Source: Saprospiraceae bacterium (GTDB lineage: Bacteria > Bacteroidota > Bacteroidia > Chitinophagales > Saprospiraceae). Taken from it: a stretch of 64,000 nt of DNA. Position 1 is the first letter of the stretch. Every line of letters begins with the position of its first letter. The position numbers and the translations under genes are program-made. The notes beneath the pieces are model-generated. The model saw only the letters and a program-made list of their open reading frames with translations, did not search any database and was not told the DNA's origin. The stretch is from positions 1-64,000 of the forward strand of contig JAHDFP010000003.1 in the NCBI GenBank assembly GCA_020628095.1, read 5' to 3'. Below, in pieces: positions 54,504 to 59,553 of the stretch.

Positions 54504-55286
54504 ATGAACAATCCAATAATTATTGAAGAACCAAAATTTTATTCGCAAAAGGGAATCGGAATAGCTACTATGTTCGGAGCACCTCTCGCAGCAAGTATTT
54601 TAATAAGAAAAAATTACAATTCGCTAAATGAAGAGAAAAAAGGAAATATAGCATTGGGATTAGGAATTACATCTACCATTCTTCTCTTTTTGGTTTTAAT
54701 TAATCTACCAGAGTCAATTGTAAATAAGATCCCTAATCCAGTCATTCCTTTAATCTATACGGGAATCATTCACTTAATTGTTAATAAGCTTCAAGGAAAT
54801 GACCTGAAGTCATATGAGGAAGAAGGGAATAAATTTATATCAAACTGGAATGCACTAGGTATTGGTTTATTGTGCGCTCTAACCATTTTTATTCCTCTTG
54901 TAGCCTATAATTATTTAGAAATAAATAATCCCGTGTATGAAACCTATAACATAGAATTAGAAAAATTTTCACGAAATGAAGAGGCATCGTTCAAATTTTA
55001 TGACCACTTAGAGACAAATTCTCAATATCAATTAGTTCAAGAGCTAAATAACATAACTATTCCATACTGGGTACGAAACAAAAAAATCATAATGAAATTA
55101 GATACTCTTGAAGGGGTAACTGAGGAAATGCTCAATCAAAACAAGATTCTAAAAGATTACTGTGATCTCAGAATTAAAGAGTTTAGGACCTTTAAAAAAG
55201 CAATTGAGGAAGATACAGATAAGTATTCAGACGAAATAGACAAAATACTCTTGCAAATAGAAAAGAAATTGGCTGAACTAAATTAA
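54504..55286 (+). CDS. Membrane protein of unknown function
   Basis: A 260-residue protein with a hydrophobic region in the first half (GIATMFGAPLAASILI, ALGLGITSTILLFLVLINL, PVIPLIYTGIIHLIV, ALGIGLLCALTIFIPLVAY; four segments), then a soluble helical half of about 110 residues rich in Lys, Glu and Asn. No family is recognised. The DNA is visibly richer in A and T than that of its neighbours, which hints at transfer. It could be an envelope anchor. Confidence 0.55.
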   Translation: MNNPIIIEEPKFYSQKGIGIATMFGAPLAASILIRKNYNSLNEEKKGNIALGLGITSTILLFLVLINLPESIVNKIPNPVIPLIYTGIIHLIVNKLQGNDLKSYEEEGNKFISNWNALGIGLLCALTIFIPLVAYNYLEINNPVYETYNIELEKFSRNEEASFKFYDHLETNSQYQLVQELNNITIPYWVRNKKIIMKLDTLEGVTEEMLNQNKILKDYCDLRIKEFRTFKKAIEEDTDKYSDEIDKILLQIEKKLAELN

Positions 55287-55377
55287 AATCTATAGATCAA
55301 ACAGAGTGGACTACAACAAGATCAAAATATTACGCCTATCATCATTACGTTGGTACTATCAATAAAAATTAAAAATT

Positions 55378-56172
55378 TTGGAAAGAGTCAAAATAGATAT
55401 ACAAGACCACATAGCCACTGTCAGTTTTAATCGCCCTGACAAAATGAATGCTTTGGATGTCGAACAATTTAAAGCCATCATCAAGGCGGGAGAAGAGGTC
55501 AATGCAAACCCTAACGTTCGTGCAGTCGTCTTGCGAGGAGAGGGTAGAGCGTTCTGCGCAGGTCTGGATGTGAGTGCCATGGGGGGGAGTAACGAGCTGA
55601 TGGATAATTCCCTACTTACCAGAACTCATGGTCTTGCCAATACTTGGCAGCAGGCGGTATGGGTATGGCGTGATCTACAGGTGCCTGTTATTGCCGCTGT
55701 GCAAGGGTATGCTTATGGCGGTGGTCTACAAATTATGTTGGCCGCCGATATAAAGTATATCACCCCAGATACCAAGTTGTCGATTATGGAGATGAAGTGG
55801 GGTATCATACCTGATATGTCAGGTACTCAACTGATGTATCACAGTGTGCGTCAGGATATCATCAAAGAACTAACGTATACCAATAGAATTTTTTCGGGAG
55901 AAGAAGCAGTTAAGTATGGCTTTGCGACGCACCTATCCGATGATCCGCACGTAGATGCTCTTTCTCTTGCCAAAGAAATATCAGAAAAAAGCCCGAGCGC
56001 CATAGTCAAGGCCAAAAAACTGCTTAATGCCGCACCTTACCTAAGTCCTGAGGATGGACTGATGCAGGAGTCTATCGAGCAACAGCATATACTCAAGAAA
56101 AAGAATCAACTGGAGGCGGTCTATGCGAGCCTACAAAAAAGGAAAGGGGAATTTGATGATTATCGGGATTAG
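55378..56172 (+). CDS. Crotonase/enoyl-CoA hydratase-family protein
   Basis: A 264-residue crotonase-fold enzyme. VVLRGEGRAFCAGLDVSAM and VIAAVQGYAYGGGLQIMLAADI carry the two oxyanion-hole segments, and LSIMEMKWGIIPDMSG is in the usual position. It may hydrate enoyl-CoA or belong to the EchA branch. Translation starts at TTG 55378; no ATG nearby keeps the first strand. It stands between two AT-rich orphan genes. Confidence 0.9.
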   Translation: MERVKIDIQDHIATVSFNRPDKMNALDVEQFKAIIKAGEEVNANPNVRAVVLRGEGRAFCAGLDVSAMGGSNELMDNSLLTRTHGLANTWQQAVWVWRDLQVPVIAAVQGYAYGGGLQIMLAADIKYITPDTKLSIMEMKWGIIPDMSGTQLMYHSVRQDIIKELTYTNRIFSGEEAVKYGFATHLSDDPHVDALSLAKEISEKSPSAIVKAKKLLNAAPYLSPEDGLMQESIEQQHILKKKNQLEAVYASLQKRKGEFDDYRD

Positions 56173-56230
56173 AGGTCTTGGGAAGATGGATAACTGTAGT
56201 TAGTGTCAATGTAATCAGAAACCATAATGA

Positions 56231-58555
56231 ATGATTGAAGAATCGGCAGGGGTAATGATATTAGAGAAAAAGGTACTTCTTACAAAAAAAGTAATTGAAG
56301 ATTCTGACAACTTTTTTTGGAGATTCCCAGGTGGTAAAATTGAGAGTAAAGAAACGACTCAAGAATCATTAAAAAGAGAACTTAGTAAAAATTTTAACAT
56401 ACAAATAGAAGTTCTTTCAAAATTTCATGAGAACGTCTACCACTATGAAGATAAACCTGTAAAACTTCATTCTTACTTTGTTAAATATGTTGATGGTGCA
56501 AACGAACTTAACGGTAACTCGGAAATAAGTTGGACGAAAATCGAAAACATACTTGATTACAACTTAGCACCTTCGGATATTCCTATAGCAATTAAACTAA
56601 TGCAAAGGCATGTTATCAAGAGGGCTTATTACTCAAATACTATCGAGAGCTTTCTTGCGGAGTCTGAAAATGAGATTCGTGGAGAACTAATGGAAAACCA
56701 CACAAATAGAACATTAGATGAACAACAAAGAAACGCTTGGAGAGAACAAATTAGAATCCTAAAAGATCAACTGCAGAATATAGATGGTCACATATTTTTC
56801 GAATTTGCAATTCCTCGTATGGGTAAACGCGTTGACAACATTATAATTACCAACGATCAAGTGTTTGTTGTTGAATTTAAGATCGGAGCTACCGAATATC
56901 ACAATCATGATAAAGATCAAGTAGAAGACTATGTACTAGATTTACGAAATTTTCATGAGGGAAGTCATAAAATTAAATTGATACCAGTTCTTGTCTGCAC
57001 CGAAGCGGCTTCAAGAAGTTCCGATTCTATAATATTGACCAACAAATCGAATTTGGGAAATTCAATAAGGCAACTTATAAATTTTGATTGCGAGAAGATT
57101 AATGTTGAAGAATGGTCAGAATCAATTTACAAACCAACACCTACCATTATTGAGGCTGCTCAAGCACTGTATAAAGGCCATAGTGTAAAGGAAATTTCGA
57201 GATCAGATTCTGGAGCGATAAATCTGACCAAAACTGCGAGTTGTATTAACAAAATCATTGAAAAATCTAAGAAAAGTAATTTAAAAACGATATGCTTTGT
57301 GACTGGTGTTCCAGGAGCAGGAAAGACACTTGCTGGCTTAAATATAGCAAATGAAAGAATGCAAGCGGATGAATCGGAACATGCTGTTTTTTTATCTGGA
57401 AACGGTCCGTTGGTTGATGTTCTGAGAGAAGCATTAGCAAGGGACTTAGTTTCCACCAAAAAAAAACAGGGAATAAAGTTTGCAAAAAAAGAAGCCCAAA
57501 GAAATACTCACTCGTTCATTCAAAATATTCATCATTTCAGAGATGAATATTTATCTGATCTTAACCCACCAATTGAAAAAGTAGTTGTTTTTGATGAGGC
57601 TCAAAGAGCATGGAATAAACACCAAGCGAGTTCATTTATGAAAAGAAAGAAAGGTTATCAAGATTTTAACAAGTCTGAACCAGAATTTCTTATTGAAGTA
57701 ATGAATAGGCATATGGATTGGTGTACTATAATATGCCTCATTGGTGGAGGACAAGAGATAAATACAGGAGAAGCGGGTTTAGAAGAATGGATAATAGCTC
57801 TAAAAAATAAGTTCAACAATTGGAATTTTTACTTTTCAGATCAAATTGTAAGTAACGAGAACTATCTTAAAAAGGATGAAATAACTAAATGGGTAGTTCA
57901 AAATGGCATTAAAAAAAACGAATTGCATCTTGCTGTTTCTGTTAGATCATTCAGGTCAGAAAGGCTATCACATTTCGTCAGGCAATTACTTGATTTGGAA
58001 TTAGCAAATGCTCATTCCACTTATTTAACGCTCATGTCAGATTATCCAATTTATCTCACACGTGAGCTGTCAATAGCAAAAAAATGGTTAAAGAGTAAAG
58101 CAAAAGGAACTGAAAGAATAGGATTAATCGCAAGCTCTGGAGCGAGAAGACTTAGGCCGTTGGGGATAGATGTCAAGAATGAAATAGATGCTCCAAATTG
58201 GTTTTTAAATAGGAAAGAGGATATTAGATCATCTTACTACTTAGAAGATGTTGCAACTGAATTTGATATCCAAGGATTGGAAATAGATTGGGCATGCGTC
58301 GCTTGGGGAGCCAATTTCTATCTTCAAAATAATAACTGGAGTTATCAAAAATTTAGAGGGAGTAAATGGATGAATATCAATCAAGAAGCAACAAAAGAGT
58401 ATTTAAAGAATACTTATAGAGTATTACTAACAAGGGCCAGACAAGGAATTGTAATTTATATTCCAAAAGGAAGTCAAGAGGATATAACGAGACCAAGTAA
58501 ATACTATGATGAAACATATCAATACTTCATTAATATTGGAATAAAAGAAGTCTAA
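56231..58555 (+). CDS. Nudix-like + PD-(D/E)XK nuclease + DUF2075 helicase fusion
   Basis: A 774-residue cytoplasmic protein. Residues 1-125 look like a Nudix domain: the box starts G35-x5-E41-x7-R49-E50-L51, but the catalytic Glu pair is K53-N54. From about 130 the usual DUF2075-type protein begins: a PD-(D/E)XK-like core (E191, D202, E215-F-K217; D-x12-ExK spacing), then Walker A GVPGAGKT (359-366), Walker B VVVFDEAQRAW (451-461), a motif V-like region FDIQGLEIDWACV and motif VI VLLTRARQG near 731-739. The DUF2075 motor is related to the Schlafen group 3 helicase domain. The DNA is AT-rich and monocistronic. A defence role is suggested by the family. Confidence 0.82.
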   Translation: MIEESAGVMILEKKVLLTKKVIEDSDNFFWRFPGGKIESKETTQESLKRELSKNFNIQIEVLSKFHENVYHYEDKPVKLHSYFVKYVDGANELNGNSEISWTKIENILDYNLAPSDIPIAIKLMQRHVIKRAYYSNTIESFLAESENEIRGELMENHTNRTLDEQQRNAWREQIRILKDQLQNIDGHIFFEFAIPRMGKRVDNIIITNDQVFVVEFKIGATEYHNHDKDQVEDYVLDLRNFHEGSHKIKLIPVLVCTEAASRSSDSIILTNKSNLGNSIRQLINFDCEKINVEEWSESIYKPTPTIIEAAQALYKGHSVKEISRSDSGAINLTKTASCINKIIEKSKKSNLKTICFVTGVPGAGKTLAGLNIANERMQADESEHAVFLSGNGPLVDVLREALARDLVSTKKKQGIKFAKKEAQRNTHSFIQNIHHFRDEYLSDLNPPIEKVVVFDEAQRAWNKHQASSFMKRKKGYQDFNKSEPEFLIEVMNRHMDWCTIICLIGGGQEINTGEAGLEEWIIALKNKFNNWNFYFSDQIVSNENYLKKDEITKWVVQNGIKKNELHLAVSVRSFRSERLSHFVRQLLDLELANAHSTYLTLMSDYPIYLTRELSIAKKWLKSKAKGTERIGLIASSGARRLRPLGIDVKNEIDAPNWFLNRKEDIRSSYYLEDVATEFDIQGLEIDWACVAWGANFYLQNNNWSYQKFRGSKWMNINQEATKEYLKNTYRVLLTRARQGIVIYIPKGSQEDITRPSKYYDETYQYFINIGIKEV

Positions 58556-58582
58556 GGCTCACTTAATTGGAAAGGTGAAATA

Positions 58583-59320
58583 ATGGAGCATATTATAATA
58601 CTCTCATTACTCTTTTTTGTAATTGCTTTAGTTTACTCCTCTGCGGGTTTTGGAGGGGGTTCCAGTTATTTGGCTGTACTTAGTTTATTTCCGCTTAGTT
58701 TTTCTGATATACGTATGATTGCACTTGTATGCAATATTGCTGTCGTCGTATCTTCAGTATGGTTATTTCATCAAAATGATAAAGTGAAGTGGCGTGCTAT
58801 CTTTCCTATCATACTCGTAAGTATTCCCTTAGCTTACCTTGGAGGTCAGTACAGGATAGAAGAAGATTTGTTTTTTACCCTTCTTGGTGTAACACTTTTA
58901 TTGGCATCTGTTATTATGCTGATGGATAATAAGAATCACCTGGTCAAACTTCCTAGGTTCTTTAATGGGATCATTGGTGGAGGCATCGGTTTTTTGTCTG
59001 GACTAGTAGGAATAGGCGGTGGCATTTTTCTTTCACCACTTTTGCATTTGACAAGATGGGATACGCCAAAGATTATTGCCAGCACATCAGCCGTTTTTAT
59101 TCTGGTCAACTCGATAGCAGGCTTGTTAGGACAGATGAGTTTGTATGGATTGCATGTGGAGATTATTCCTCTGGCTTTTTTAGTGTTGGCAGTTGTTGTA
59201 GGTGGTCAGATCGGTGTGCGATTGACCATTTTTAGATTTAACGCGCTTTTAGTCAGACGCATCACAGGAGTTGTTATTTTATTTGTATCCTTGAGAATAA
59301 TTATGAGACATTTTCTATGA
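58583..59320 (+). CDS. TSUP family permease, first gene of the molybdenum cofactor operon
   Basis: A 245-residue polytopic protein with paired repeats SSAGFGGGSSYLAVLSLFPL near residue 20 and SGLVGIGGGIFLSPLLHL near residue 145. The stop overlaps the moaD start by 4 nt (ATGA), so the two are translationally coupled. TSUP relatives export sulfite or related anions. Here an export or supply task for molybdoenzyme substrates is possible. Confidence 0.87.
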   Translation: MEHIIILSLLFFVIALVYSSAGFGGGSSYLAVLSLFPLSFSDIRMIALVCNIAVVVSSVWLFHQNDKVKWRAIFPIILVSIPLAYLGGQYRIEEDLFFTLLGVTLLLASVIMLMDNKNHLVKLPRFFNGIIGGGIGFLSGLVGIGGGIFLSPLLHLTRWDTPKIIASTSAVFILVNSIAGLLGQMSLYGLHVEIIPLAFLVLAVVVGGQIGVRLTIFRFNALLVRRITGVVILFVSLRIIMRHFL

Positions 59321-59553
59321 AGGTTTTCTGTTTTGGTATGGCCAAAGACATAACTGGTCTGTCCACATTAGATTTGGATAATGAGTCAGTTAGTACTGTG
59401 GAAGAATTGAAAAATTATTTGATCGCAGCTTATCCAGAGTTTGAAAAATACAAGTCCTTTATGATTGCTGTTAACCAATCCTATGCAAATAATGACCTAG
59501 TCCTTAATGGGACAGAGGAAATTGCCATAATCCCTCCTGTCAGCGGTGGATAG
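59317..59553 (+). CDS. moaD: Molybdopterin synthase small subunit MoaD
   Basis: The 78-residue ubiquitin-fold protein ends in PPVSGG, the Gly-Gly that is adenylated by MoeB and thiocarboxylated to carry sulfur. The start overlaps the permease gene and the stop overlaps moaE by 8 nt. Confidence 0.93.
   Translation: MKVFCFGMAKDITGLSTLDLDNESVSTVEELKNYLIAAYPEFEKYKSFMIAVNQSYANNDLVLNGTEEIAIIPPVSGG

Follow-up and report, generated by a model that had tools for sequence, protein, structure and literature searches.

The window analysed here comprises positions 1 to 64,000 of contig JAHDFP010000003.1 (assembly GCA_020628095.1, Saprospiraceae bacterium). One uninterrupted forward-strand frame, 774 codons long, runs from an ATG at 56231 to the stop at 58555 and codes for an N-terminal Nudix domain, a PD-(D/E)XK-type nuclease domain and a Schlafen-group-3 helicase domain in one chain (Table 1). 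An initial annotation, made from the sequence alone, had proposed this three-part Nudix, PD-(D/E)XK and DUF2075 architecture, and Pfam, PADLOC, the structural models and motif conservation agree with it. The window protein is a nuclease-helicase of the PDC-S41 kind to which a degenerate, NudG-like Nudix domain has been fused; the broader pairing of NudG-like Nudix genes with type IV-like restriction enzymes is of stronger interest.

Table 1. Features of the fusion gene in the window (pLDDT, predicted local distance difference test; TM, template modelling score).
Feature	Positions	Strand	Evidence
Nudix / PD-(D/E)XK nuclease / Schlafen-group-3 (DUF2075) helicase fusion, 774 aa	56231..58555	+	Open reading frame, Pfam, PADLOC
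Nudix domain, residues 1-126, NudG-like	56231..56608	+	Pfam NUDIX; AlphaFold2 pLDDT 88.8; Foldseek 2rrk TM 0.82
Nudix box, residues 35-57 (GKIESKETTQESLKRELSKNFNI)	56333..56401	+	Alignment
K53 N54 replacing catalytic Nudix-box glutamates	56387..56392	+	EE kept in 48/50 compared Nudix domains
Fusion junction, residues 127-129; Nudix-less homologues have Met here (M[KNS]R[AS]YY)	56609..56617	+	Homologue alignment
PD-(D/E)XK nuclease domain, residues about 130-300	56618..57130	+	Model topology; conservation; PADLOC PDC-S41
Catalytic motif E191 ... D202 ... E215-F-K217	56801..56881	+	Conserved in 61/61 homologues with letters
Schlafen-group-3 / DUF2075 helicase domain, residues 352-745	57284..58465	+	PF09848 E 2e-81; Foldseek SLFN11 7zep E 9e-6
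Walker A, residues 359-366, with K365	57305..57328	+	Tested positions identical in 63/63
Walker B, residues 455-458 (DEAQ)	57593..57604	+	63/63
Helicase motif VI-like TRAR, residues 734-737	58430..58441	+	T734, R735, R737 in 63/63

Residues 5–118 match the Pfam NUDIX family above its cutoff (E 8e-9), and the best sequence match of the window protein in the PDB is 2rrk (E 4e-11). Because stand-alone Nudix proteins aligned poorly with full-length rows, a separate model of this part was computed together with five partner sequences, and it predicts a Nudix fold. The best of 499 solved chains recovered by Foldseek (E ≤0.001) was E. coli NudG (ORF135, 2rrk; E 1.4e-10), the closest solved fold to residues 1–128, and M. 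smegmatis MutT2 with 5-methyl-dCTP (5zro, TM 0.82) was also near. E. coli NudG hydrolyses CTP, dCTP and 5-methyl-dCTP, and its kcat/Km for 5-methyl-dCTP is quoted in an excerpt of PMC3744803. The window protein differs from NudG in being fused to a nuclease-helicase and in lacking two glutamates of the Nudix box. This EE pair serves catalysis. In the window box (GKIESKETTQESLKRELSKNFNI) it is replaced by K53 N54 (RELSKNFNI for REUXEEXGU), departing from the consensus GX5EX7REUXEEXGU quoted in a passage of PMC5389931. EE is present in 48 of the 50 Nudix domains compared (49 different), the exceptions being the window and locus L017 (EA). The other box residues G35, E41, R49 and E50, plus D116, are retained, and the terminal branch of the domain in the Nudix tree is long (1.48). 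The Nudix part recognised in the initial annotation is thus present as a fold, with a degenerate box. It likely has no hydrolase activity, to judge from its residues; the loss is likely and not proven because natural Nudix enzymes with altered boxes exist, e.g., NudD (PMC5389931).

The rest of the protein is a full-length match to the PADLOC model PDC-S41 (PDLC05014; residues 130–773, 950 bits, positions 2–652 of 657), a candidate system whose model starts where the Nudix domain ends; this bears out the assignment to a defence-type family. Its helicase family, PF09848, was formerly named DUF2075, and TRAR resembles helicase motif VI. Residues E191, R200, D202, E215 and K217 are identical in all 61 homologues with letters there (two of the 63 rows are gapped), in agreement with the earlier designation of E191, D202, E215 and K217 as nuclease residues; K365, also singled out, falls in an equally conserved Walker A motif. 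No Pfam nuclease family reached significance over the middle part (NERD had E 0.11), and PADLOC Cas4_II matched at E 0.002. In the full-length AlphaFold2 model, in which the Nudix part is unreliable (pLDDT <50), this part shows helix 164–180, strands 187–192, 201–207 and 210–217, helix 225–241 and strand 249–256. This is the order expected for alpha-beta-beta-beta-alpha-beta, suggesting in silico a PD-(D/E)XK core. As far as sequence and model can tell, the window protein contains a nuclease plus an NTPase motor.

Foldseek searches with the whole model placed human SLFN11 (7zep) nearest, followed by SLFN14 (E 8e-5), with low TM values of 0.21–0.24 (0.24 for SLFN11). As PF09848 is common to SLFN11 and the window protein, the Schlafen-group-3 helicase and these top matches could point to an RNA-targeting Schlafen-like effector. 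This appears improbable: the Schlafen core (SLFN/AlbA_2-type) domain is absent among 12 Pfam families at E up to 1, and the window protein has a PD-(D/E)XK-like nuclease part and a Nudix domain instead.

A contig scan identified nine relatives, Flavobacteriaceae or genera of that kind according to record titles, that match the window protein (63–66% identity) only from residue 125–129 on. Each has a Met at or beside the position of residue 129, and the body is therefore a free-standing protein elsewhere. Matches to PDC-S41, weak ones included, were found in 34/395 phylum, 38/395 class and 22/198 order genomes, and in 19/299 genomes of one family and 1/10 of another, these sets overlapping. Flanks were fetched for high-scoring matches only, yielding 63 long loci once redundancy was removed (body match of 450 aa or more, scoring >500 bits). 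Duplicates (L060, L062), broken copies (L014, L050, L053, L064) and a partial one (L065) were left out before the body tree, and its rows L069 and L092, re-fetches of L025, are excluded from the count. A Nudix domain is fused in three of the 63 loci (window, L025 and L046), with junctions KLMQRHVIKRAYY, KLINQNRQSTRSYY and KLQAQTSIKRAYY at the identical place, and a separate Nudix gene lies within 500 bp of the body gene in seven (L008, L010–L013, L018, L056). The L025 and window proteins align over their entire lengths (785 columns, 57% identity), and the fused Nudix domains of L025 and L046 retain EE. An assembly or frameshift artefact joining two genes was rejected, given the identical junction in two other genomes. 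The architecture, regarded beforehand as unusual, is hence not unique. One clade of the body tree, supported at 99/98, unites the fused rows with six of the seven adjacent-Nudix rows and also contains many Nudix-less rows. The Nudix tree joins the three fused domains to the L063 Nudix and to L071, a lone Nudix (88/95). Spread by viruses was also rejected, since a viral_contigs scan, covering close relatives only, gave no match; the body and a Nudix gene do occur together in L018, a faecal 'phage' record.

The body gave no match in 13 congener genomes (several incomplete, 53–98%), for which reason the gene was likely acquired, as had been supposed. The same absence, the patchy distribution of PDC-S41 (weak partial matches included), the broken body copies and the presence, around some loci, of DarTG, McrBC and other restriction genes speak against a DNA repair or recombination nuclease-helicase of the RecB/RecD type, with a Nudix domain for damaged nucleotides. 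We deem such a function hardly probable, even with RecD present in the whole-model Foldseek results (E 4e-3, ranks 9 and 11, after the Schlafens) and with MutY carrying a Nudix-fold reader.

The position of separate Nudix genes was examined in 66 loci (the above 63 and, in addition, L063, L017 and L019), with up to 6 kb of flank on each side, using a hidden Markov model (HMM) built from the window domain and six partners. All nine separate matches scoring >25 bits fall no more than 500 bp from the body gene, a zone making up 10% of the flank length searched. The nominal probability of this, 1e-9, overstates the case because five of the nine belong to one clade and the HMM derives partly from these same genes, which makes the test partly circular and the loci non-independent. 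The diversity of arrangements counts more: the Nudix gene is convergent with and overlaps the body gene in L008 and L010–L013, is downstream on the same strand in L018, is downstream past one small gene in L056, and lies upstream, overlapping the helicase gene, in L063 and, as an HNH-Nudix protein, in L017. The view that the adjacent flavobacterial Nudix is a mere housekeeping gene beside polA (polA by our reading) was rejected, given that only 8/60 genomes of its family have a match to the L012 Nudix (E 1e-10 or better) and that L008 has the Nudix-body pair without polA. It may nevertheless hold for L010–L013, since L066 carries such a Nudix beside polA while its 1.5 kb flanks lack the body gene.

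The informative clue, not visible from the window sequence, is the recurrence of similar Nudix genes beside both PDC-S41 and type IV-like restriction genes. In L063 the gene order is McrB-like (AAA_5), McrC (PF10117, E 3e-57), PLD, Nudix and PD-(D/E)XK-SLFN helicase, the last divergent and with its frame broken near the end; in L017, a Niallia plasmid, it is McrB-like, McrC (E 7e-71), HNH-Nudix and SLFN helicase. These McrBC operons share with the window the Nudix and the PD-(D/E)XK-SLFN helicase (with HNH-Nudix in L017), encoded by overlapping genes, and differ from it in having separate genes, a divergent helicase (28–31% identity) and McrB-like and McrC genes. In L019 the helicase gene adjoins McrC. 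Several lone Nudix genes have a large PLDc-ResIII-DUF3427 neighbour (three scanned), which is the SauUSI architecture, and PADLOC mREase_IV gave 788 and 815 bits on two scanned neighbours. Such a gene lies within 1.5 kb in 11 of 43 fetched Nudix loci, which include three re-fetches of body-linked loci (L069, L070, L092). SauUSI and McrBC cut DNA containing 5-methylcytosine and 5-hydroxymethylcytosine, SauUSI with ATP, according to a passage of PMC3874153.

From the restriction side, the mREase_IV models PDLC03658 and PDLC03659 (E 1e-100 or better) identified 22 SauUSI-like loci in 203 phylum genomes, seven of them already seen from the Nudix side. Thirteen of the 22 (L135–L140, L143–L145, L149–L151, L154) are immediately preceded by a same-strand Nudix gene (gap −54 to +2 bp, 12 of them overlapping), all with EE; by model these are 6/6 for PDLC03658 and 7/16 for PDLC03659, some of the 16 being cut or broken. 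Outside Bacteroidota, nine of 30 plasmid and phage matches, a non-random choice that left aside the annotated nudG/mutT matches of E. coli, Sinorhizobium and Rhizobium, were read for the Nudix neighbourhood, plus four for the body. Eight of the nine have a restriction-type or HNH gene near the Nudix or an HNH fusion, among them several Bacillota plasmids with restriction or HNH genes beside it. In L157, an unverified Staphylococcus record, a SauUSI-like gene (971 columns aligned at 42% identity) comes straight after the Nudix, and L158 encodes an HNH-Nudix protein. The order is Nudix, MrcB_N-HNH, MazG-like and DUF2075 in L159, and Nudix, SauUSI-like (mREase_IV, 871 bits), MazG-like and DUF2075 in L160. 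GmrSD_N adjoins the Nudix in L164 and lies three genes on, on the other strand, in L161; HNH is near it in L162 and L165, and the queries used recognised no restriction or HNH gene in L163. The window family shares with SauUSI-type enzymes (PLDc-helicase-DUF3427) the single-chain nuclease plus NTP-driven motor and the NudG-like neighbour genes. It differs in having PD-(D/E)XK and not PLD, a Schlafen-type and not a ResIII-type helicase, and no DUF3427.

We propose, with a probability of roughly 45%, that the window protein is a nuclease-helicase of restriction-like character, driven by ATP and contained in a single chain; its Nudix part would once have hydrolysed modified dCTP and would now serve for binding or sensing. 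The N-terminal domain would descend from a NudG-like (modified-)dCTP pyrophosphohydrolase, formerly encoded next door by a partner gene of its own, which became joined to the nuclease-helicase gene when the boundary between the two was lost. Where relatives have an intact Nudix box, this partner probably degrades the modified dCTP of the nucleotide pool, which might starve phages that build modified DNA or, alternatively, prevent modified bases from entering host DNA and so spare the host from being cut. Because its fold is kept and two catalytic glutamates are lost, the window Nudix would most likely bind a nucleotide or modified base without hydrolysis, and gate or target the nuclease-helicase. 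The same combination strengthens the earlier idea that the protein may sense a nucleotide signal. Cleavage of nucleic acid and an anti-phage role would be expected of such a protein, and its association with type IV-like genes suggests a dependence on modified DNA. A bolder version holds that NudG-like Nudix proteins, with MazG-like ones in some operons, are general partners of modification-dependent restriction, clearing modified nucleotides to protect the host from its own enzyme or to stop phages from modifying their DNA, and that the window protein carries a dead fused sensor that turns on the nuclease-helicase once modified dCTP appears. A cell would then recognise modifying phages by their effect on the nucleotide pool, ahead of or alongside their DNA. 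We rate this version as unlikely.

Several observations weigh against the proposed reading. There is no Nudix fused or within 500 bp in 53 of the 63 PDC-S41 loci (some near contig ends), so the body does not require one; of the seven loci with an adjacent Nudix, five (5/9 matches) belong to one flavobacterial clade and may represent one event. The body tree is compatible with one fusion event as with two, so that the three fusions may have a single origin. SauUSI-like genes are missing within 1.5 kb in 32/43 Nudix loci, and the Nudix is missing in nine of the 22 SauUSI-like loci, some cut or broken. The full-length model (9 rows) is of moderate quality (mean pLDDT 61.5, pTM 0.50), a Pfam scan of the window protein found no known modified-base reader (DUF3427, MrcB_N, SRA), and inspection of the surroundings of the window gene and of L046 revealed no evident defence genes. 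The PADLOC match to PDC-S07 (PDLC04899; residues 2–126, 105 bits) was rejected as evidence of defence, since the model is non-specific: it gives 110–139 bits on many phylum frames of about 350–410 aa, by length probably MutY, and also matches in E. coli. We therefore relied on gene position and trees. Calls based on PDC-S07, which is listed in a survey of S. thermophilus and named in one of archaea, may over-report defence.

The loci without a nearby Nudix, the change of EE to KN and the long end branch would also suit an anti-phage restriction-like body bearing a decayed passenger, the remnant of a fused hydrolase with no present role. The domain being in frame, with a good predicted fold and with G35, E41, R49, E50 and D116 in place, makes this doubtful. 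Somewhat less probable still is an abortive alarm, in which the Nudix would sense an infection-caused nucleotide change other than modified dCTP and unleash a toxic nuclease. A dead Nudix fused to an effector, the controller-like XRE gene directly upstream in some relatives and the naming of Nudix among the domains of NAD-linked conflict systems (PMC7159879) are consistent with it, whereas modified cytosine, rather than NAD or alarmones, is indicated by the NudG-like fold together with the repeated association with SauUSI-like and McrBC genes.

Phages evade restriction by modified nucleotides, and type IV enzymes respond by cutting modified DNA; coupling a dNTP hydrolase to these enzymes would extend the conflict to the nucleotide pool and would give the uncharacterised candidate PDC-S41 a testable function. 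The question also arises for SauUSI-type enzymes of whether the upstream Nudix gene is for self-protection or is a second weapon. In the openly searchable literature, with subscription papers and preprints outside its scope, we found no description of a Nudix link of DUF2075/PDC-S41 or of type IV restriction. Passages on Schlafen helicases or nucleases and phage have no Nudix; for DUF3427, one paper has neither Nudix nor MutT, and one Nudix passage elsewhere concerns NAD-linked systems. Among extracts on Nudix, anti-phage systems, helicases and defense islands, a single Nudix passage lists hotspot flanking genes, the one retrieved with type IV restriction is unrelated, and the name PDC-S41 is absent from the one survey checked for it. 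A preprint on bacterial Schlafens in anti-phage defence reportedly exists.

Some further arrangements accompany these genes. The HNH-Nudix proteins L017:4906-6390 and L158:3418-4881, whose first ~300 residues have no Pfam match, are a second kind of Nudix-nuclease fusion. MazG-like pyrophosphohydrolase genes lie beside DUF2075 helicase genes (L159:6168-6497, L160:7768-8088) and about 3 kb from a PDC-S41 gene (L044:2740-3066). MazG-like enzymes have a fold different from Nudix, and a human relative, DCTPP1, is reportedly concerned with 5-methyl-dCTP. The second Nudix fusion (L025:1-5583) is near DarT/DarG-like genes and a PDC-S68 helicase. C-terminal extensions of PDC-S41 proteins (L054:5260-7998, L061:6001-8406) share a stretch of ~90 aa, similar by eye, which is a separate gene in L056:5552-5851; the L054 protein additionally has a GreA/GreB C-terminal domain. 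An XRE gene lies directly upstream of the PDC-S41 gene in L008 (5731-6000), L010–L014 and L058; that of L008 resembles restriction-modification control proteins (74 bits), and the others match it by local HMM. In Nudix-less loci (L029, L031–L033, L036, L037, L059 and L064) a small uncharacterised gene (108–154 aa; a 280-aa frame in L036) adjoins PDC-S41, and the two members tested had no Pfam match. A gene of 78–91 aa recurs near PDC-S41 (L010, L011, L013, L043, L058), in some cases beside polA; one tested had no Pfam match.

Contrary to the earlier statement, the fusion gene does not stand alone in the window and is closely packed among other genes: an enoyl-CoA hydratase family gene lies 58 bp upstream and a TauE-like gene (our reading; no NCBIfam match) 27 bp downstream, both on the same strand, with no terminator-like site in 55300–59400 (1.7 expected). 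A restriction-modification pair was disfavoured, since inspection of the open reading frames (ORFs) at 50–64 kb of the window revealed no evident DNA methyltransferase near or adjoining the gene. The exact empty site was not found in congeners; their loci that reach far enough keep tauE with moaD and moaE (tauE and moaD by our reading) and do not have the fusion, and the enoyl-CoA hydratase is not within the 1.5 kb flanks of congener tauE loci. The gene had been called AT-rich, which holds in a moderate sense only: its GC content, 0.337 against a mean of 0.395 (standard deviation 0.032), is the second lowest of the 38 window ORFs of at least 200 aa. The most AT-rich of them (0.307) is a 260-aa ORF at 54504–55286, without Pfam match.

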